From: Thraustochytrium sp. TN22
Lineage: Eukaryota; Sar; Bigyra; Thraustochytrida; Thraustochytriidae
Assembly: GCA_013306675.1 (NCBI GenBank)
Contig: JABLUY010000339.1
Coordinates: 1 to 30,956 of the forward strand
Direction of reading: 5' to 3'
DNA: 30,956 bases
The position numbers and the translations under genes were made by a program. This document shows, piece after piece, positions 58 through 28,100 of the stretch. The notes under the pieces were generated by a model, which was not told where the DNA came from, ran no database searches, and worked only from the letters and a program-made list of their open reading frames with translations. The stretch's first letter is position 1; the number at the start of each line of letters is the position of its first letter.

Positions 58-3000
58 ATGCAGCGGCTGTCGCGGCGCGCGCTGGCGCGGCGGTCGCGGC
101 CGCGCAGCGCGCGCGAGGGCGAGCGCGAGGAGGGCGAGGAGCACCTCGAGGCGCAGGAGGAGCTGGAGCCGGAGCTGGAGCTGGAGCGGGAGCTGGAGCT
201 GGAGCGGGAGCTGGAGGGCGGCGAGACGCAGGAGGAGCGGGAGGACCAGCGCGTGGAGGCGGCGCTGGCGGCGTGGTGCGACGAGGACGGCGTGGAGAGC
301 GGGGAGCTGGCGAGGCGCTGCGTGCTGGCGGAGGACCTGCGGAGGTGCTCGCGCGAGCCGGCGGGGCTGGATGAGGCGGCGTACATCCTGGAGCGGCTGC
401 GGCGGCTGCCGGACGTGGCGACGTTCGCGCACGAGCTGCTGCACAAGCACAAGCTGGACACGCTGGACAAGTTCAAGGAGCTGAACGAGGGGGACCTGCT
501 ACGCATGGGCGTGAGCACGTGGCAGGCGCGCAGCGCCATCATCAACGCGGCCAAGTCGTGGACGCGCGGCGAGAGCCTGGACCTGTCCATGGAGGAGCTG
601 ACGAGCCTGCCGGAGGGGCCGATGACGCTGCACGCGGACGTGAACTTGGGCACGTCGCGGCTGGAGCAGCTGCCGGCGTCGCTGACGGTCAAGGGCAAGC
701 TGGTGCTGAGCTTCTCGAGCCGGCTGCGCGCGCTGCCACCCGGGCTGCGCGTGCAGGGCGACCTGGTGGCGGAGCGGTGCGTGCGCCTGCGCGAGGTGGA
801 GGAGGACCTGTCGGTGGGCGGCGCGCTGGTGCTGAAGCGGTGCGAGGCGCTGGAGCGGCTGCCGGCGCGGCTGGAGCTGCTGGGCGACCTGGTGCTGGCC
901 TCGTGCAAGTCGCTGCGCGCGCTGCCGGACGGCATGCACGTGCGCGGCAACCTGGACCTGAAGCGGTGCGAGGCGCTGCAGGTGCTGCCGCGCGGGCTCG
1001 TGGTGGACGGCCGCCTCACGCTGCGGTACTCGGGCGTGCGCGCGCTGCCGGACGACGTGGTGCTCAACGGCGACCTGGACGTGGCGGACTGCGACGGCTT
1101 CTTTCTGCGCGACGGCTTCGCGCTCGGCGGCACGCTGCTGGTGGACGAGTGGACCTTTGGCGAGGCGTTCCCGCGCGACCTGCACGTGGGCGGGAGCCTG
1201 GACCTGGAGATTCTGTCCATGGCGCGGCTGCCGCCGGTGCGCGTGGACGGCATGCTGCGCATCGGGTCGTCGCTGCGCGAGATCGAGGGCCCGCTGGTGG
1301 TCGGGCGGCACCTCTCGCTCATCTCGTGCGCGGCGGCGCTGCCCGAGGGCACGACCGTGGACGGCAAGGTGGAGCTGGTGCTGTGCCACGGCCGGCGCGA
1401 GCTGCGCGGGCTCAAGGTCGGGTCGGCGCTGGTGCTCCAGTCGTGCTCGCGCATCAAGGAGGTGGACGACATCGAGCTGGAGGGCTCGCTGCGCATCGAC
1501 AACTGCCACTCGCTGGAGCGCATCGGCGCCGGCGTGCACGTGCAGGGCGGCGTCATGATCCGGCACTGCCACCGCCTGGTCTCGCTGCCGCCGGCGTGGT
1601 CCGTGCACTCGCTGGACATCGCGTCGACGGCGATCGAGGAGCTGCCGGAAGGGCTGCGCGTGGCGCAGTTCTTCCGCGTGGTCAACTGCCCGCTGACGCG
1701 GCTCCCGGAGGACATTCACGTGGGCGGGAGCGTCGAGGTGCTGAGCGACATCGAGGCGCTGCCGCCGGCGCTGCACACGGTCAACGGCGACCTGGAGATC
1801 GCCTCGAAGCGCCTCGAGGCGCTGCCGTCGCCGCTGCGCGTGGCGCAGTCGCTGCGCGTGTCGCGCTGCGTCAAGCTGCGCCGCCTGGACGGCGACCTGC
1901 GCGTGGGCCTGGACATTTGCGCGGACAACTGCGCGGAGCTCGAGGTGCTGCTGCCGGACAACTTCCACGCGCTCGGCTCGGTCACGGCCGTGCACTGCCC
2001 GCGCCTGGAGCGCCTCGGCGACCACCTGCAGGTGGAGGGCGACCTGAACCTGCGCGAGTCCGAGGCGCTGCGCGAGCTGGACAACGTCTACGTGGGGCGC
2101 TCGCTGCTGCTGAGCAAGTGCCACAGCCTGGAGCGCGTGGGCGACGGCGTGCAGACCGGTCTGGACCTGATTCTGAGCCAGTGCACGGCGCTCACGCGCG
2201 TGCCGCGCCGCGTGCGCACGGCCGGCGTCTTCTCGCTGAACGGCTGCGAGAGCATGACGGAGCTCGACGTGGACCTGGACATTGGCTGGGACCTGGACCT
2301 GCGCGGCACCAGCATCACGGTGCTCCCGCCCAAGGGCCGCGTGCGCGGCGACCTCTTCGCGGAGCAGCTCCGCATCCGCGAGATCCCGCCGCAGCTCACC
2401 ATTGACGGTCACATTGCGCTGCGCGGCTGCACGATGCTGGAGAGCATCCAGCTCGCCTGGAGCACGGTGTACTCGATCGACCTGTCGAGCACGCGCGTCA
2501 CCTCCCTCCCGGACAACCTGCACATCAAGGGCGACCTCATCCTCTGCAACAACGACCTCGAGCACCTGCCGCGCACCCTTCGCGTCGAGGGCCTGCTCAA
2601 CGTCTCCGGCTGCCGCCGGCTGCGCGCCCTGCCCGAGGACCTCTCGGTGGCCAAGGCGATTTTGGCGAGCGACTGCACGATGCTTTCCAGCCTGCCGTCG
2701 ACGCTCTACGTGCAGAGCGACCTGACGCTCTGCAACGCCGTGGCGCTCACGGAGCTGCCCGAGGAGCTCGAGGTGGCCGGCCGCCTGGACTGCTCCGGCT
2801 GCTCCATGCTCTGGTCCGCCGGCTCGCACCTGACCGTGTACTCCAACTGCAACTTCGCCATGTGCGTCTCGCTCTCGGCGCTGCCCGAGGACCTGCACGT
2901 GGGCGGCGACCTGGACTGCTTCGGCTGCGCCTCGCTCGAGGTGCTGCCCGATGACATGAGCGTCGGCGGCAGCCTGCTGCTCACCGAGTGCATCGGCATC

Positions 3001-4215
3001 AGCACGCTGCCGCCCTCGCTGCTGCGCTGGGGTCCCACGCCCACGGGCGGCCGCCACACCATCGACCTCACCGGCACCTCCATCTTTGAGGACCACCTGG
3101 AGGACCTGCGCGCCGCGGCCTCCAGCTCCGTATTTTTGCTCGTCACGCGTCCCAACGCCTCTCCGGAGCGCAACTTCACCAACCTCTCCGACGCCGTGCG
3201 CTTCTGGTTCGGTCGTGCCCAGGTCCCTGCCGTGGCCGCCGCCGACGACCCGGCCGCGAGCAAGGCGGCCGCCGACGCCGCCACGGCCGCCGGCGAAACC
3301 GAGGAGGCTTCGCGCCTCGCCGTCGCCGTCGAGGAGGTCGTGCCCAAGATCAGCCTGCGCGGCATCCTGCTCTTCCTCAGCAAGCTCACCGTCGCCAAGG
3401 AGTACAAGCGCGAGGACCTGCGCCAGTCGCTGGCGCACCGCGTCGTCGACGTGCTCAAGCTCCTTGTTGACGAGGAGGACGCCCGCGACGAGCTTCTCAC
3501 GCGCATGGGCGACTCCGTCGACGCCTGCGGCGACAAGCCCATCCAGGCGCTCAACCAGATGGCCGTCGTCGTGCGCACTGTGCACGCGCGCGGCAACCGC
3601 GAAGCGCTGCGCGCTCTCGCCGTGGGCATTGCCCGCCTCCAGGTCGTGCAGCACCACGCGCAGATGAAGGTCGACTCCTTTCGCCGCCCGGTGGACGAGG
3701 TCGTCATCTTCCTCCGCTTCGAGGTCGCCCTTGCCGAGGAGCTTGGCCTTCCCGTGCCTGCCGCGGACCAACTCTTTCCCAACTTTGTGCTCGTCACCGA
3801 GGCCGAGCTCGCCGCCGCGCGCCAGGAGGCTCTGCAGATCACGGGCCAGGGAGACGAGTTCGAGGCCTGGCTCGCCGACTGGTCCGAGTGGCAGCGCCAG
3901 CTCCGCGAGGAGGCCGCCAAGGTGATCAGCTTCGACCACCTCAAGCGCAACTCACGCCGCTTTTCCCTCTCCTGGACCGACCTCTTCGGCAACCGCATGC
4001 GTGACCCGGTGCGCATTGGCAAGAACTCCTCCATCTGGAGTCTCCAGGATCTCCTCAGGCACTGGGTCCGCACCGGCATGGACCTCAACAACACCCCGCG
4101 TACCGTCGAGGAGATTCGCCATCTCTCGCGCTGTCAATCGCTGCCCCGCGCCGCCAGCATCGTTCCCATGGAGCAGCAGCAGCCGGTCCTTGCCGAAGAG
4201 CTGGACGCAGAGTAG
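58..4215 (+). CDS. SAM / LPX-type leucine-rich repeat / NEL-like E3 ubiquitin ligase
   Basis: Single exon, 1385 aa. An Arg-rich start is followed by an acidic Glu-Leu tract (about residues 20-60, built on a GAGCTG-type DNA repeat). Residues about 122-168 look like a SAM domain (L..L.....L..LNEGDLLRMGV). Residues about 175-1010 form a regular solenoid of roughly 21-residue units of the pattern LP..L.V.G.L.L..C..L, closer to the bacterial LPX class than to eukaryotic LRRs. Residues about 1039-1282 match NEL E3 ligase features as I know them: an LSDAV.FWF entry helix, a Cys-x-Asp motif (C1157, D1159), an IFLRFEVALAEELGLP helix and EFEAWLADWSEW near its end. Predicted role: ubiquitin transfer through a Cys thioester, with the repeats binding substrate. 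The C-terminal 90 residues may be U-box-like. The frame is open to the window edge, so ATG 58 is the first visible start, not a proven one. The gene is highly confident; the NEL assignment comes from recalled family features. Confidence 0.85.
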   Translation: MQRLSRRALARRSRPRSAREGEREEGEEHLEAQEELEPELELERELELERELEGGETQEEREDQRVEAALAAWCDEDGVESGELARRCVLAEDLRRCSREPAGLDEAAYILERLRRLPDVATFAHELLHKHKLDTLDKFKELNEGDLLRMGVSTWQARSAIINAAKSWTRGESLDLSMEELTSLPEGPMTLHADVNLGTSRLEQLPASLTVKGKLVLSFSSRLRALPPGLRVQGDLVAERCVRLREVEEDLSVGGALVLKRCEALERLPARLELLGDLVLASCKSLRALPDGMHVRGNLDLKRCEALQVLPRGLVVDGRLTLRYSGVRALPDDVVLNGDLDVADCDGFFLRDGFALGGTLLVDEWTFGEAFPRDLHVGGSLDLEILSMARLPPVRVDGMLRIGSSLREIEGPLVVGRHLSLISCAAALPEGTTVDGKVELVLCHGRRELRGLKVGSALVLQSCSRIKEVDDIELEGSLRIDNCHSLERIGAGVHVQGGVMIRHCHRLVSLPPAWSVHSLDIASTAIEELPEGLRVAQFFRVVNCPLTRLPEDIHVGGSVEVLSDIEALPPALHTVNGDLEIASKRLEALPSPLRVAQSLRVSRCVKLRRLDGDLRVGLDICADNCAELEVLLPDNFHALGSVTAVHCPRLERLGDHLQVEGDLNLRESEALRELDNVYVGRSLLLSKCHSLERVGDGVQTGLDLILSQCTALTRVPRRVRTAGVFSLNGCESMTELDVDLDIGWDLDLRGTSITVLPPKGRVRGDLFAEQLRIREIPPQLTIDGHIALRGCTMLESIQLAWSTVYSIDLSSTRVTSLPDNLHIKGDLILCNNDLEHLPRTLRVEGLLNVSGCRRLRALPEDLSVAKAILASDCTMLSSLPSTLYVQSDLTLCNAVALTELPEELEVAGRLDCSGCSMLWSAGSHLTVYSNCNFAMCVSLSALPEDLHVGGDLDCFGCASLEVLPDDMSVGGSLLLTECIGISTLPPSLLRWGPTPTGGRHTIDLTGTSIFEDHLEDLRAAASSSVFLLVTRPNASPERNFTNLSDAVRFWFGRAQVPAVAAADDPAASKAAADAATAAGETEEASRLAVAVEEVVPKISLRGILLFLSKLTVAKEYKREDLRQSLAHRVVDVLKLLVDEEDARDELLTRMGDSVDACGDKPIQALNQMAVVVRTVHARGNREALRALAVGIARLQVVQHHAQMKVDSFRRPVDEVVIFLRFEVALAEELGLPVPAADQLFPNFVLVTEAELAAARQEALQITGQGDEFEAWLADWSEWQRQLREEAAKVISFDHLKRNSRRFSLSWTDLFGNRMRDPVRIGKNSSIWSLQDLLRHWVRTGMDLNNTPRTVEEIRHLSRCQSLPRAASIVPMEQQQPVLAEELDAE
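3172..3903 (+). other. NEL-like catalytic domain within the LRR protein
   Basis: Predicted helical domain following the last repeat, residues about 1039-1282. The candidate nucleophile is Cys1157 in DACGDK (TGC at 3526-3528), and the acidic partner Asp1159 sits two residues on, as in the NEL CxD motif. The helix VVIFLRFEVALAEELGLP and the Trp-containing segment EFEAWLADWSEWQRQL occupy the places where NEL proteins have a similar helix and a W-rich closing helix. An Ala-rich insertion (about residues 1055-1090) is not typical of bacterial members as I know them. Alternative: an unrelated all-helical domain with chance resemblance. Confidence 0.7.
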
Positions 4216-4491
4216 CTATACAGGCAGCGCAGGAAAGATGAGCGACGTGCGGCAGCGCGCGAAAAGACGAGATACGAGAGACGGGCGCATCGAATGTACA
4301 ACGCACGGCTCTGACGAGTCGACGCCGGCATGCCATGTCATCGCAAGTGGCCGGCAGCATCTTGAATCCTAAGACTTTTATGTTCAATTTACGTTTCGAT
4401 GTTGATGTGAGTCGTGATGTGCGCGCCGCGCGGCCCGTGCCTTGAGAGAGTGAAGGAGAACACGGGCTGCAGAACCGAAACGCGCAAGACC
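4216..4491. other. Intergenic spacer between the NEL-like gene and the BORCS8-like gene
   Basis: A 276-bp spacer. It is more AT-rich than the flanking genes, especially at 4365-4400, and probably holds the 3' end of one gene and the promoter of the next. I see no recognisable motif. Confidence 0.5.
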
Positions 4492-5199
4492 ATGAGCGCC
4501 ACAGCGGCGGCGGCGACAGGGAGAGCGGAGCGCAGCGCCCAGAGCGCGGAGGAGGCGGCGGCGCGGAGGGCGGCGGAGGAGGTGTCGGAGCTGCTGAAGC
4601 GGCTGGCAAGCGAGCCGGCGACGGCGCTGTACCTGGTGCAGCAGCACGTGCGCGAGAAGGCGCTCGCGGACCAGGTGGCGGCGCGCGACAACCTGCTGCA
4701 GACGCTGACGAGGCTTCGCGAGGGCGTGGCCGGCGCGAGCGACGCGGGATGGCGCGGCAGCAGCAGCGGCAGCGGCAGCGGCAGCGGCAGCGGCAGCGGC
4801 AGCGGTAGCGAAAGCGAACGCACGAGCCTGGGCAGACGCACGGAGCGAGGCGCAGAGCGCGTGGAGCAGACGCGCTCGCGCGTGGCGGCGCTACAGGAGC
4901 GCCTGGAGATCGTGTCGGGCATCCACCGCGACGTGCAGACGCCGCGACGGCGGCGCAACCGGCTGACTCGCGCGTTGGCGCCGTCGCCCGACGGCTCGGG
5001 TGAGGCGGACCGGCTGCCGTTGGGCGTGGGCCAGGGCCTGGACAACGAGCTCATCTCGGGCGAGGTGGACATTGATGAGTACGCGATGCAGATCTCGCGG
5101 CTCGCGCGCACGTTTGCGGAGCTGGAAGCTGTGGAGAAGGAGCGCGACAAGGAACGCGATAAGCAGCGCGAGCGACCGCCGTTGCATCGCGACTGGTGA
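4492..5199 (+). CDS. BORCS8-like subunit of the BORC lysosome-positioning complex (tentative)
   Basis: Single exon, 235 aa. The segment LLKRLASEPATALYLVQQHV near residues 38-57 strongly resembles the N-terminal helix of BORCS8 (MEF2BNB), whose signature is LA.EPS.ALY.LQEHV. In animals BORC sits on lysosomes and recruits Arl8 and kinesins. A Gly-Ser linker encoded by a GGCAGC repeat (about 4755-4810) separates this helix from a second helical part (VAALQERLEIVSGIHRDVQ). A third, highly charged coiled-coil tail (ELEAVEKERDKERDKQRE) ends the protein. It is about twice the length of animal BORCS8. An in-frame ATG at 4417 would add 25 residues, but ATG 4492 has the better context (A at -3) and precedes the conserved part. 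The assignment rests on one helix. Confidence 0.6.
   Translation: MSATAAAATGRAERSAQSAEEAAARRAAEEVSELLKRLASEPATALYLVQQHVREKALADQVAARDNLLQTLTRLREGVAGASDAGWRGSSSGSGSGSGSGSGSGSESERTSLGRRTERGAERVEQTRSRVAALQERLEIVSGIHRDVQTPRRRRNRLTRALAPSPDGSGEADRLPLGVGQGLDNELISGEVDIDEYAMQISRLARTFAELEAVEKERDKERDKQRERPPLHRDW
4755..4810 (+). repeat. GGCAGC hexanucleotide repeat coding a Gly-Ser linker
   Basis: About eight GGCAGC units with minor variants inside the BORCS8-like gene. They encode an alternating Ser-Gly tract likely to be flexible and length-variable. Confidence 0.85.
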
Positions 5200-20219: not shown

Positions 20220-23200
20220 TCATCCTTGTGGTGACGCTCCAAAGCATGCCTCAAACAAGGCCGCCAAAAACAAATCCTGCTCGAAATACTTGCGCCGCAC
20301 CGGTATGGAGCTGCGCTCGTCCAGCTCAAGGTCGTTAGCGAGCGAGGCTGGACACGACGCCTCGTAGGCCGCCCACGGCGCGAAGCTGAGAGACCGGTAC
20401 GCGTCCGGCTCGTGTGCCAAGACAATGCGCTTGCCAGCACGTACAGCAGCGCGGAGCTCCTCGCACACCGAGGGCAGCGCAAAGACGCCCCGGGTCAGCA
20501 CGAACACCACGACACGGGCCCCGCGCATCGCGTCCAGCGCGCCTTTGTCCGCACCCGCCGTCGCTGACGTCCAAAGCCCGCGCCTCTGCAGCTTGTGCGC
20601 GAGCTCGCCAACCAAGTCGCCGCCAGACGTTGGCGCATGGCAGAGAAAGATGTGGGACGTCTCGCCCAACCCGAGCGCAGGGATCGCGACCTGTGCCACC
20701 TCGTCGCCGTCCATGTCGCTGTCCAGGGCGCCCTCGTCCGCGTTGAAGAAATCGGAAAACTCACTCACGCCCGCGTACTTTGTCTTCACCTTCCTCTTCT
20801 TCTTCTTCAGGTCCCGCGTTGCCTGCACGCGCAGCGAGCCGCTCGCGGTCATCCGCAGCGTGACGAGGGCCACGTACGGCACGACGACGCCCGAAATCGG
20901 GCTCACCAGCATGAGCTCCCACGGGAGCCGCGAAAAGACAGCCTCTTGCTGCTTGCGAAACATGGACACCACCAACTTGAGCACGAGCACGGGGCGCTCC
21001 GCGCTGGCGCTTGCTGTCACGCGAAGCACGTCCTCCTCCTCCTCGAGCGAGAAGGCGTCGCCACCAAAAGCAAGCAGCGCTGTCCGGCGACCCACACGCG
21101 GCGCCACCACCGCGCCGCCCAAGTGGGCTGCGTAGTTGGCTGCCTGCGCGACCAACCGCTGAAAGACCCCATTCGGCAGGTTCAGCTGCCAGCTGGCGAA
21201 AGTCCAGCTCGCACGCCAGGCCGCGAGAAAAGTCGCCCAGCACGGACGCATCCGTATCCTGCAACGCGCCAAAGAGTCCCGTCAGCAGGTAGACGTCGTC
21301 CTCGCCGCGCGAAGAAGCCCAGCGGCACGCGAGGAGGTTTTCCACCATGAACGCCAGCACGAAGTCCACCTCTTCACCGCGCCACAGCCAGTCCAACAGG
21401 GCGCGCTGCGCCAGCGCCTCGCGCCGTAGGCGCTCAAAGGCCGCTGCCAGGGCCGCACTACCGGTCGCCTCCAGCTCCAGGCGCCTCCTGCCCACGTGCA
21501 GGTCTGTCGCGATGACGCATGCGAGCTTATCCAGGAGCCACTGCGGCTCGATCACCACGACGCGCGCGAGCTCCTCGGTTGCGTCTAGGTGGACCACGAC
21601 GCCCAGCCCGTGGAAGAAGCGCAGCATCGCATCGGTATCCTCGCGCGGCCGCCCGTATGCGGCCGCCATCTCCACCACGCTCTCATACGGCAAGAACGCC
21701 CGCTCGCTGGTCATCAGATCCTCGCGCACCTTGAGCCACGCCAGCGGCACGCGCTGCTGCACGCACGGCCGGCCCGCAGCGGCCCTCGTCAGGGCGGCGC
21801 GCAGGTCCGTCGCTCGCCCAGGGTCCGCGCTGCTGTTGTCCAGTGCAAAGAACGAGCGCTTGCCGTCCAGTGGCCGGACCAGGCCCGCCATTCTCTTCAG
21901 CGCCACGACCTGCTGGCGCAGGACGCGCTCCACGCCACCTAGGTCGCGCACTTGGTCTCGATGGGTGCCCACCAGCAGCACGGGTGCCTCCGGCGCGTGG
22001 AGGCGGACACTCTTGAGCCAGAATGAGAGATTCTCCACAGCGCGCATCCGCGCCCGCGTGTCGAGCAGCTCGCGCATGTCGAAGACCACCAGGTAGATGC
22101 CCTCGTTCGACAAGAAGATGTGGTGCAGCGCGTAAAACACCTCCTGCCCGCCGTAGTCCCAGATCGTGAAGCTCACGTCCTCGCCCGCCTTGTGCTCATT
22201 CAGCGCACGCGCCACGTCCCTCTGGTTGAAGCGGTGATGCTCGTCCACGGCGACTAGGGGCTCCTTGGCCGCAACGCGCCGGACGGGCTGCACTGGTGCT
22301 GTCACGACGTCAGCATGGAGCACTTCCTTGGCCTTGGCCTTCGCCTTGGCCTTGGCCTTGGCACGCGGGCTTCGCGTCAGGCCCAGGGCCCGCCGCAAGG
22401 CCGCCATGCGCATGCGGCCACCAAGGCTCCTGTGCTTGGCCGCACCCGCTCGCTTGGCCTCGCCATGGTCTTCGTCGTGTTTCGGCGCGAGTCCCGCTTC
22501 CTGGCGCAAGCGCAAGGCTGCAGCCTTGCGGACCTGCGCGTCGAAGGCACCCTGGTCCGAGGTCAGCGCCTGCCAGTCTTGTGCATTCGTGCGCACCACG
22601 TCGGCGACCTCCGTAGACACGTGCTCTGCAACCGGCGCGACGCCCAGCAGCGAGCGCACCGTTGACGACTTCCCCGCCTCGCCCTGGCCCATGACCATGA
22701 GCTTGACGCGACCCCAGGAGCACTCGTCCCCGCTTTTCAGGGCCGCGTCCACCGCCGCCACCCAGCGCTCGACGCCCGGCGCCTGGCTCGCCCGGTTCCG
22801 AGCGCACAGCTCCGCAATCGCGGTCAAAAGCGCCTCGTCCTGCATCCCGGTGATCTCCAGGCCGAGCTCCGTCACTGTGCGATTGGTTGTGAGGGCGCCC
22901 GCCAGCGCTGCGGCACCTTCGTCGCCGACCTCGTTGAGCCCGAGACTTGCGCTCTTGGTGTCAGTCAGCCGTGTGCAGCGCCCGCGCCGCTCCTCGGAGC
23001 CTCCTCCTTTCCTTCGTTTTTCTCAGCCTTTCTCAAACTTTCTCAGGCTTTCTCAGGCTTTCTCAGAAAACGTACTCAAGCACGGAGAGCGCCGCGTTGG
23101 TCGTGAGCGCTTTGGCAAGTGCAAGGACGGCTGGGAGCCTGAACATGTTGTCCTTGAGGCTATATGCCGCGGTCCGCGTCAGCCAGCTTGCGCATCGGGC

Positions 23201-25125: not shown

Positions 25126-28100
25126 TCAGGCAAAGCAAGCCTGGAAAAGAGCCGAGAGAAAGTCGCCCTGCTCAAAGTACTTGCGATGCACGGGTAGGGA
25201 GGCAGCCTCATCAGCGAGGTAATCGGTGAAGAAGGAGGGCGCGGTGGCGACGTAGGCCTGCCAGGGCGCGAAGCTGGGGCGAAAGGCATCCGGCTCGCGC
25301 ACGAGGACAATACGCTTGTGGGCGTCGACGGCGGCGCGCAGCTCCTTGCGTACGGCGGTGCTGGCAAAGACGTCGGCGGTAAGCACGAGCACAAAGACGC
25401 GCGCGGCGTGGACCTCGGCGAGCGCGCCGCGGTCGGTATCGTCAGAGCCGGCGACGACTAGGCCACGGCGCTCGAGCTTTTGCGCAAGGTCATCAGCCAG
25501 CTCGGCGCCCGAGGCGAGCGCGTGACAGAGGAAGAGGTGGCTCGACTCGCCGGGCGCGGGCGGCGGGACGGCCGCCTGCGCAACCTCACCGCCGTCAATG
25601 TCTGCGTCGAGATCGCCCGCTGGGGCGGTGAAGAAGTCGTTGAACTCCAGCACGGAGACTTGCGCGCCCTTGCGCGGGCGCACGGCACGGACACGGTCCG
25701 TGGCGTCGGGCGACCAGAGCGTGAGAAGCGCCACGTAGGGCACGACGGCGCCCGAAGTCGGGCTGACAAGCATGAGCTCCCACGGGAGATGCGCAAAGGT
25801 AGCCTCGCGAAGCTTGCGAAACATGGAGACAACAAGCTTGAGCGCCAGCACCGGGCGGTCGGCGTCAGCAGCGGCCGTGACACGCAGCACATCGCCGTCG
25901 AGAACCTCGAGCAGCACCCGATCTGCACCAAAGGCCAGCAAGGCGGCCCTGCGGCCTGCTTGCGGACCCGCGTAGGAGGCGCCGCCGAGGCGGGCTGCGT
26001 AGTCGGCGGCCTGCGCCACGAGGCGCTGGAAGACGCCACTGGGCAGAAAAAGCTTGGCAAAGTCGAGCTCGCAGGCGAGGCCGCGCGAAAAGTCGCCAAG
26101 GTCCACATCACCGCGCCACGCCTCCGTGAGCAGAGCCGATACAAGGTAGAGCTCCTCGCGGTCCTGCACGCCCTCCGGCGACCAGCCGCAGAGCAGCAGG
26201 TTCTCCTGCATGAAGGCAATGAGAAAATCGACCTCCTCGGCGGCCCAGAGCCAGTCCAAAAGGGCTCGCGAGGCGATGGCCTCGTGGCGGAGGCGCTCAA
26301 AGGCGTGCTGCAGCGCCTCATCCTCCTCCCGCTCCAGCGCAAGCAAGGTGCTTGCCAGGTGCTGGTCGGCCGCGACGACGCGCGCAAGCTTGTCGAGGAG
26401 CCACTGCGGCTCCACCACGACGATGCGCGCCAGATCCTCCGAGCCGCGCAGGTGCAGAACGACGCCGAGCCCGTGAAAGTAGCGCAGCATGGCGTCCACG
26501 TCGGCGCGCGTGCGGCCCAGACCCGCAGCCATGAGCACGACGGCCTCGTAGGGAAGGTGCGGCTCGTCCGTGGCGAGCAGGTCGCCGTAGAGCTTCATCC
26601 AGGCCAACGGCACGCGCTTGCGCACGTACTCTTGGTCAGCGGCTGCCGCGGCCAGCGCGGTGCGCAGGTCCGCGGCGCGAGCTGGGTCGGCGCTGCTGTT
26701 GTCGATCGCGAAGAAGGAGAGTTGTGCCCCGCGCACAATGGAGGTGAAGCCCTTGGTGTAGCGGCGCAGGACGCGGTCCACCCCGCGCAAATCGCGCACC
26801 TGGTCCATAAAGGTGCCAACAAGGAGCACGGGCGCCCCCGGCGCGTGCAGCGTGATGCTACGCAGCCAAAAAAGCAGGTGATCCAGCGCCGCCGGCCGCT
26901 GGCTGCGGTCCAGCAGCTCGCGCATGTCAAAGACAACCAGGTAGATGCCCTTGTCCGAGAGGAACACGTGGTGCAGCGCGTAAAACACCTCCTGGCCACC
27001 GTAGTCCCAGATGGTGAAGCTCAGGTTTTCACCGGCCGGCTGCCGCACGTGCACTTCGTCCTCTTCCGTCAGCTCGAAGCGCCGCGCCGACTCGGTGATG
27101 CGCAGCGCATCCGACACGCGCCGCGGCAAGCTCACGCGCTTCGCGGCCGGGGCCGATGGGGCCGTATGCAGCTGCTGCGCTGCCGCCTTGCGCACTTGCG
27201 CATCGTAGACGCCCTCGTCCGTGCTCGCCGCCTCCCAGTCCTCCGCGTGCGTGCGGACAATGTCGCCCACCACCGTCGACGCATACTCCTTGGCGGGCAG
27301 GCGGCCCAGCAGCGAGTCCACCGTCGCAGTTTTGCCCGCCATGCCCTGGCCCACCACCATGAGCTTGACGCGGCCCCAAGGCACCTCGGCGCCCTGGTCC
27401 AGCACCGCCTGCACCGAGCCGGCCCAGCGCTGCGCCAAGCTCGCTCGCTCCTGGTTGCGCTCCGTCGCGTGACGGATGCGCGCGAGCACGTTGCGGTCCC
27501 CGATGTCTGGGTTCTCGAACAAGCTGTATGCGTGGAATCTCAACACGCGTGAGCACCATTGCGCGTGTACACCAGGTCTGACGACAGGGATGTCTGAACT
27601 TACTTGAGGTAGGTGAGCGTGCTGTTGAGCTCCATTGCACGGGCCAAAGCCGTCGCGCCCGGCTTCCCGATGTTGTTTTTCACCAGTCCCAGCTCGCGCA
27701 GCGTCTGGTTGTGGCGCAAGACGTCCGCCAAGGCGCTCGCGCCCGCGTTGCCAATCCCGTTGTCCGCCAGCCTGGATGCCCATCGTCAGTCTCTTGAAAA
27801 GAAACGAAAATTTGGGAACCGTGGAGCACGACCTGGCTCACGGATGCTGCGCTCCCGTCATACGTACCACAAGACCTCAAGCGCTGTGTTGGACTTGAGC
27901 GCGATGGCGAGCGAATCCACGCCTGCATCGCCAAGGGCCGTCTTGTCAAGGACGAGGCGCGTCAAGCCTGCGTCCGTCGCGAGCGAGTGCGCCAGCGTCT
28001 GCGCGCCCTCCGCGCCGAGCATCGTCGTCCGCAGACTGCGAGCAGTGCGAGCGTGAGTGAGCAAAGCTTGCTTGCTTGTGTCCAGGAGGAAGCCGATGCG

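Follow-up and report, generated by a model that had tools for sequence, protein, structure and literature searches.

The first gene of the window (the whole stretch of Thraustochytrium sp. TN22 DNA analysed here, 30,956 nucleotides, contig C265) probably encodes a ubiquitin ligase of the thioester type with a bacterial-type NEL catalytic core. Judged from its sequence, the gene is a resident nuclear one and belongs to a family of at least 25 members, in which the E2-docking module of the bacterial enzymes appears to have been swapped for a U-box-like one.

NEL catalytic domain and active site

The sequence evidence supports the presence of a NEL catalytic domain in a eukaryotic gene. A search against the Pfam NEL model, proposed in an earlier note on this DNA, was significant, with 84.5 bits against a cut-off of 24 (PF14496, E = 9e-24). 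The note had placed the domain at about residues 1039–1282. The Pfam match covers residues 1103–1288, so the claimed stretch comprises a linker and nearly all of the catalytic domain. NEL was the sole domain recognised by Pfam in the whole protein of 1385 aa.

Comparison of the whole protein with the PDB by sequence identified SlrP (E = 2.7e-7) and IpaH9.8 (E = 7.4e-6), which aligned over approximately residues 1135–1286. A profile built with 14 of the 25 NEL domains of this genome matched 12 NEL chains in the PDB (E = 1.7e-19 to 1.2e-16), and the single other chain at E ≤ 1 had an E-value of 0.86. The eukaryotic and the rhizobial-type NEL profiles matched each other over 169 columns with a probability of 99.5% (E = 5.6e-23). 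The same NEL family search in 14 control genomes gave no match, which excludes chance as the source of the NEL domain.

The motif Cys1157-x-Asp1159 named in the earlier note was read directly in the sequence. C1157 falls on the Cys of the C-x-D of SlrP and IpaH9.8, and both residues are present in the 55 eukaryotic domains that were aligned. By our own counting along the PDB-search alignment, Asp1213 is the counterpart of IpaH9.8 Asp397. Section 3.3 of a 2022 review reports that Asp339 and Asp397 are both important in IpaH9.8 (PMC9320238).

Layout of the protein

The reading frame has no internal stop (Table 1). By eye, its N-terminus, starting at position 58, resembles those of the relatives P0003 and P0004, and not that of P0002. 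The SAM-like domain proposed earlier was recovered with a profile of five sequences, whose best PDB matches were SAM-domain proteins, the first with E = 3.9e-5; Pfam alone gave a weak match. Poly(A) polymerases appeared from E = 0.32 up. Some of the matched chains we took to be SAM proteins.

Pfam called no LRR in this protein. The bacterial-style LPX repeats described ahead of the NEL domain were nevertheless seen as LPxxLxVxG-like units, 20–21 residues apart in the regular stretches, and residues 194–342 matched the PDB LRR protein 8z5u (E = 3.8e-11).

Table 1. Features of the window, with positions on its forward strand and the evidence for each
Feature	Residues	Position	Strand	Basis
ORF, 1385 codons	1–1385	58..4215	+	Order: N-terminal low-complexity region, SAM, LRR solenoid, NEL catalytic domain, U-box-like tail
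SAM domain	about 104–168	367..561	+	Five-sequence profile; single-protein Pfam E = 0.029
LPX-type leucine-rich repeat region		571..3099 (limits approximate)	+	Repeat spacing; PDB 8z5u
NEL catalytic subdomain	1103–1288	3364..3921	+	Pfam PF14496 and PDB NEL chains
Cys1157, counterpart of the catalytic Cys of C-x-D	1157	3526..3528	+	Codon TGC; 55/55 eukaryotic and 12/12 rhizobial-type domains
Asp1159 of C-x-D	1159	3532..3534	+	55/55 eukaryotic and 12/12 rhizobial-type domains
Asp1213, second catalytic Asp	1213	3694..3696	+	54/55 eukaryotic (one Glu) and 12/12 rhizobial-type domains
C-terminal tail, in place of the bacterial E2-ubiquitin-binding thumb	1289–1385	3922..4212	+	Shuffle-level similarity to thumbs
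U-box-like core of the tail (about 57 residues)	1303–1359	3964..4134	+	Own U-box profile; E4B matches in the PDB
BORCS8-like neighbour gene		4414..5199	+	Pfam BORCS8, E = 1.5e-8

The family in this genome and its relatives

The assembly (37.9 Mb, 453 contigs) encodes 25 NEL domains. All of them score above the Pfam cut-off and none has internal stops. Their open frames range from 471 to 3511 aa, the shortest being truncated by a contig end. Clusters occur on C453 (four copies), C335 (four) and C158 (three).

The window was scanned for Pfam domains, as were 21 of the other 24 copies. Among these 21, the partners were SPRY on C139 and C20, ARM on C348, and SAM at two places on C288. LRR models were found on C139, C20, C288 and C53, most of them below the cut-off, and the remaining scanned copies had NEL alone. 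In a loose motif count, made without a control, 23 of the 25 copies had at least two occurrences of LRR-spaced P-x-x-hydrophobic units; the two lacking them are the ARM copy on C348 and the copy truncated by a contig end. The NEL ORF of the copy on C288 (L030), where SAM matches occur at two places, is 2883 aa or more in length and measured 3511 aa in the six-frame search.

Searches with two queries gave 30 homologous proteins: eight from Hondaea fermentalgiana, a thraustochytrid, one from Durusdinium trenchii, two MMETSP entries and 19 without a name. Proteins built in the same way as the window gene's product thus exist elsewhere. Since the MMETSP entries derive from transcriptomes, genes of this kind are transcribed. 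The Durusdinium record (P0015, a dinoflagellate entry) is an ARM-NEL protein that runs into a PF01984 domain. In the tree it groups with the ARM-NELs of our genome and of Hondaea, and it may be a contamination.

Genomic setting

Besides the NEL gene, the window carries a BORCS8-like gene, a kinesin, two ROC-COR genes, a WD40 protein and a PP2C. One ROC-COR ORF lies at 20761–22875 (−). The protein of the other, at 25126–27783 (−), has a C-terminal TIR match barely above the Pfam cut-off (28.3 vs 28 bits).

Gene order was compared through four homologous models, three from Hondaea and one from Durusdinium, that extend beyond the NEL gene into a second one. Hondaea P0003 runs on into a BORCS8-like gene, the same gene that follows NEL in the window: its end matches window positions 4684–5148 (E = 5e-36). 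Likewise, P0007 extends into a gene that on C139 comes after the NEL gene. The third Hondaea model, P0023, runs on into tubulin, and on C453 that tubulin gene is nearby, on the strand of the NEL gene but ahead of it. Gene order was thus kept in two of the three Hondaea models, and in the third the other gene is close on the opposite side. The Durusdinium model had no match.

The earlier note had proposed a nuclear gene of a cellular eukaryote with host-like composition. The first proposal agrees with the eukaryotic neighbours, the gene order common with Hondaea and the 25 copies. As for composition, the GC3 of ORF 58–4215 is 0.955, above the 0.77–0.90 of the seven neighbours measured, so the gene bears no low-GC foreign mark.

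Phylogeny and origin

The tree included 67 NEL domains. Its bacterial side was drawn from the search with a Bradyrhizobium query and consisted of 12 of the 121 bacterial proteins. One of the bacterial NEL proteins, P0130 from Bradyrhizobium septentrionale, also has PF02902, which we take to be the ULP1-type protease family.

The window gene groups with P0002, P0003 and P0004 (support 100/99). Several other copies of this genome have partners from other sources, and one group (support 98/93) is made up entirely of ten copies from this genome. These groupings indicate that, as sampled, the family predates the split from Hondaea and kept expanding in this genome. The 12 rhizobial-type rows make up one side of a fully supported long branch. 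The phylogeny with bacterial NELs proposed earlier separated the two groups. It cannot be rooted, and all its bacterial rows are of the rhizobial type.

Bacterial contamination, or a very recent bacterial insertion, would be suggested by the fact that NELs are otherwise known from bacteria. We rejected it as extremely improbable: the neighbours are eukaryotic and are shared with Hondaea, there are 25 copies, many of them diverged, and several copies group in the tree with proteins from other sources. Among GTDB genomes and viral contigs, scans turned up no relative of this type; the patterns used were narrow and these are weak negatives, and a second pair of such scans overlooked bacterial NELs known to exist. 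In a transfer of the reverse direction, bacteria would have acquired the NEL core of a eukaryote and exchanged a U-box-like tail for the helical thumb. In its favour, ubiquitin ligases have work only in eukaryotes, the eukaryotic family is varied and combines NEL with eukaryotic domains, and the long branch parting both groups cannot be rooted. Against this, NELs are described as widespread in bacteria (PMC9320238), and the species-named eukaryotic matches come from one species and one dubious record. We regard this direction as improbable. Acquisition from bacteria is the simpler and most likely reading, preferred on the known distribution of NELs: the catalytic core would have been gained in an ancestor of these protists, a U-box-like module would then have taken over from the thumb, and the family would have expanded with different recognition domains. 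In this sense we infer the transfer and domestication that the earlier note had suggested.

A U-box-like tail in the place of the thumb

In bacterial NELs the thumb is a helical E2-ubiquitin-binding domain. A report on SspH1 places the catalytic Cys at residue 492 and the thumb at residues 623–697, so that the thumb begins 131 residues after the Cys (PMC12506513, in the part on its domain limits). In the window gene, the NEL match ends 131 residues after C1157 and the tail comes next. The catalytic part of the rhizobial-type proteins ends 125–133 residues after the Cys. What follows in the window gene, a U-box-like tail in the position of the thumb, was overlooked in the earlier note.

Two single-sequence genome searches located the tail in 23 of the 25 NEL ORFs, and the one further match was a fragment on C358. 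The tails of C44 and C156, which look degenerate, were not found by these searches. The C358 fragment (positions 2–211) is a partial NEL-type tail at the very start of the contig and is probably a 26th copy cut by the assembly. The core has the pattern L.G...DPV ... HWV.TG.D..N, in which the Gly is kept in 52, the Pro in 53 and the Asp in 54 of 54 tails. These are 54 of the 55 available; P0003 was omitted, as its model continues into the gene that follows.

A profile of 34 tails was searched against all PDB chains. E4B U-box chains occupied ranks 1–3, in register (E = 0.04, 0.079 and 0.14), and the only other chain up to E = 10 was a keratin, at 1.7. This profile included 34 of 41 non-redundant tails; seven were left out by hand, including the degenerate ones of C44 and C156. 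An earlier profile of 25 longer tails (19 of the 25 from this genome and six of the 30 others) also had E4B first (E = 0.094), with keratin second (E = 0.13), followed at lower ranks by two more E4B chains and then by vinculin and one other.

The core was also compared with a profile of the seven U-boxes of the genome. With default settings it scored 21.3 (E = 0.00063, probability 28%). None of 200 column shuffles of the core reached this score, the maximum being 16.7, and when any one of the seven U-boxes was left out the E-value stayed at 0.0002–0.0017. The tails gave E = 0.0011 against the same U-boxes with default settings, a value reached by none of 100 shuffles, and E = 0.0063 with a probability of 2.5% under a different alignment setting. 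The U-box had been picked for testing after its motif was noticed by eye, so the E-values of these single comparisons are not those of a blind search; the PDB searches were blind. SAM, NEL and thumb profiles found nothing in the core. The Pfam U-box model (PF04564) called none of the 25 tails at E ≤ 10, and the alignment, as we read it, shows no conservation of the Pro in the second U-box loop. The match is suggestive and not decisive; on these comparisons, the tail is probably, though not provenly, a divergent U-box of the E4 type.

A different explanation is that the tail is a strongly diverged bacterial helical thumb and the protein an ordinary NEL in every part. It stands in the same place, directly after the catalytic domain, and with 97 aa in the window gene it is near the length that follows the rhizobial-type domain (median 77). 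When a homologous thumb was sought, the similarity of the tail to 58 non-redundant rhizobial-type thumbs was at shuffle level, equalled by 10 of 150 shuffles for the full tail and 28 of 150 for the core, yet the similarity to the genome's own U-boxes exceeded all shuffles. The direct alignment covered rhizobial-type thumbs. For the thumbs of other bacterial groups the sole cover was the PDB, where the tail profiles matched no NEL chain up to E = 10. In addition, the Gly, Pro and Asp are conserved where a helix would be needed. These results did not support homology with the thumb, and we consider a diverged thumb unlikely.

Proposed mechanism and known systems

Section 3.3 of the 2022 review describes how bacterial NELs transfer ubiquitin from the E2 to the Cys by transthiolation and then to a lysine, while the LRR selects the substrate and restrains the enzyme (PMC9320238). 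The residues needed for transthiolation are present in the window gene, and the part that differs is the one docking the E2. In the mechanism we propose, an E2 loaded with ubiquitin would dock on the U-box-like tail, the ubiquitin would pass to Cys1157 with the help of Asp1159 and Asp1213, and it would then be moved to a lysine of a protein held by the LRR. An empty LRR may also keep the enzyme off, as in bacterial NELs.

According to a 2014 essay, E2 mutants on which RING and HECT enzymes fail are still used by bacterial NELs, which indicates a different contact with the E2 (PMC4133400). A U-box in the place of the thumb would therefore mean a changed E2 contact. The same observation counts against the swap, since a U-box is not obviously needed.

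In the RBR ligases (Parkin, HOIP, HHARI) the E2 binds to a RING-like module, and its ubiquitin is passed to a Cys located elsewhere in the protein. The swapped contact proposed for the thraustochytrid proteins could be a similar two-step scheme reached another way. The likeness lies in the proposed mechanism only, as these proteins have a NEL catalytic domain and no RING1-IBR-RING2 zinc fingers.

The bacterial NEL effectors (IpaH, SspH, SlrP, NopM; PF14496) share with the window gene the catalytic subdomain, the C-x-D, the second Asp and LPX-type LRRs ahead of them. They differ in being encoded by bacteria and injected. Here we found a large eukaryotic gene family without secretion-system context, with SAM, SPRY or ARM partners and with a U-box-like tail where the thumb is not recognisable. 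Compared with the U-box E3/E4 enzymes of the UFD2/E4B type (PF04564), the tail core is in register with E4B in the DPV motif, the hydrophobic positions and the D..N, but it falls below the family cut-offs, is joined to a catalytic-Cys domain and, as we read the alignment, lacks the second-loop Pro.

NELs are called exclusive to bacteria in the 2022 review (PMC9320238, in the part consulted), and the 2014 essay considers at one point that eukaryotes might encode NEL enzymes (PMC4133400). NEL is named among the bacteria-like domains of NLR genes of Klebsormidium and green algae (PMC7145615). The relevant part of that paper equates an LRR/ODAL domain with NEL, and no catalytic NEL is shown in it. 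PF14496 occurs in that paper and in two others, a Giardia inventory whose models include the accession and a predictor of bacterial effectors. Our search of open-licence papers found no description of thraustochytrid NEL ligases or of this family. The family bears on whether eukaryotes encode NEL enzymes, a question that can now be put to the test in thraustochytrids. Should the tail function as a U-box, a captured enzyme would have been re-fitted to the E2 of its host by the exchange of one module, giving an additional cysteine-type E3 architecture that we did not meet in the open-licence literature searched.

Divergence of tandem copies

Six tandem pairs were compared. In five of them, identity was 92–98% in the NEL domain plus tail and 67–87% in the stretch before it. 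The sixth pair is older and had 72% and 44%, respectively. The dN/dS ratios were 0.38–0.97 before the NEL domain vs 0.12–0.35 in NEL plus tail. Positive selection on the LRR was looked for in these six pairs and no dN/dS above 1 was found. The Fisher test of the contrast was below 0.05 in two of four pairs. In two pairs (C158 11418/8175 and C453) silent sites were far more diverged before the NEL domain, so part of the contrast reflects homogenisation of the NEL half. The pattern fits receptors with changing recognition surfaces and does not prove them.

The proteins could also be inactive as ligases and serve as LRR/SAM scaffolds. This seems quite unlikely to us: the three catalytic residues are kept in 55, 55 and 54 of 55 domains, and dN/dS in NEL plus tail was below that of the preceding region in all six tandem pairs, although hardly so in one. 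Returning to an active ligase, we put forward tentatively, as a possibility short of an even chance, that the family is a new eukaryotic E3 class, in which the U-box-like module would recruit the E2 via the usual RING/U-box surface and hand ubiquitin to the NEL Cys, a two-step scheme like that of the RBR ligases but invented independently when a captured effector had its thumb exchanged, and the fast-diverging LRRs would perhaps act as intracellular recognition receptors. In the tandem NEL group peculiar to this genome, the two copies inspected (L039 on C335 and L036 on C158) have an N-terminal region rich in Cys, and hydrophobic stretches precede their LRR.
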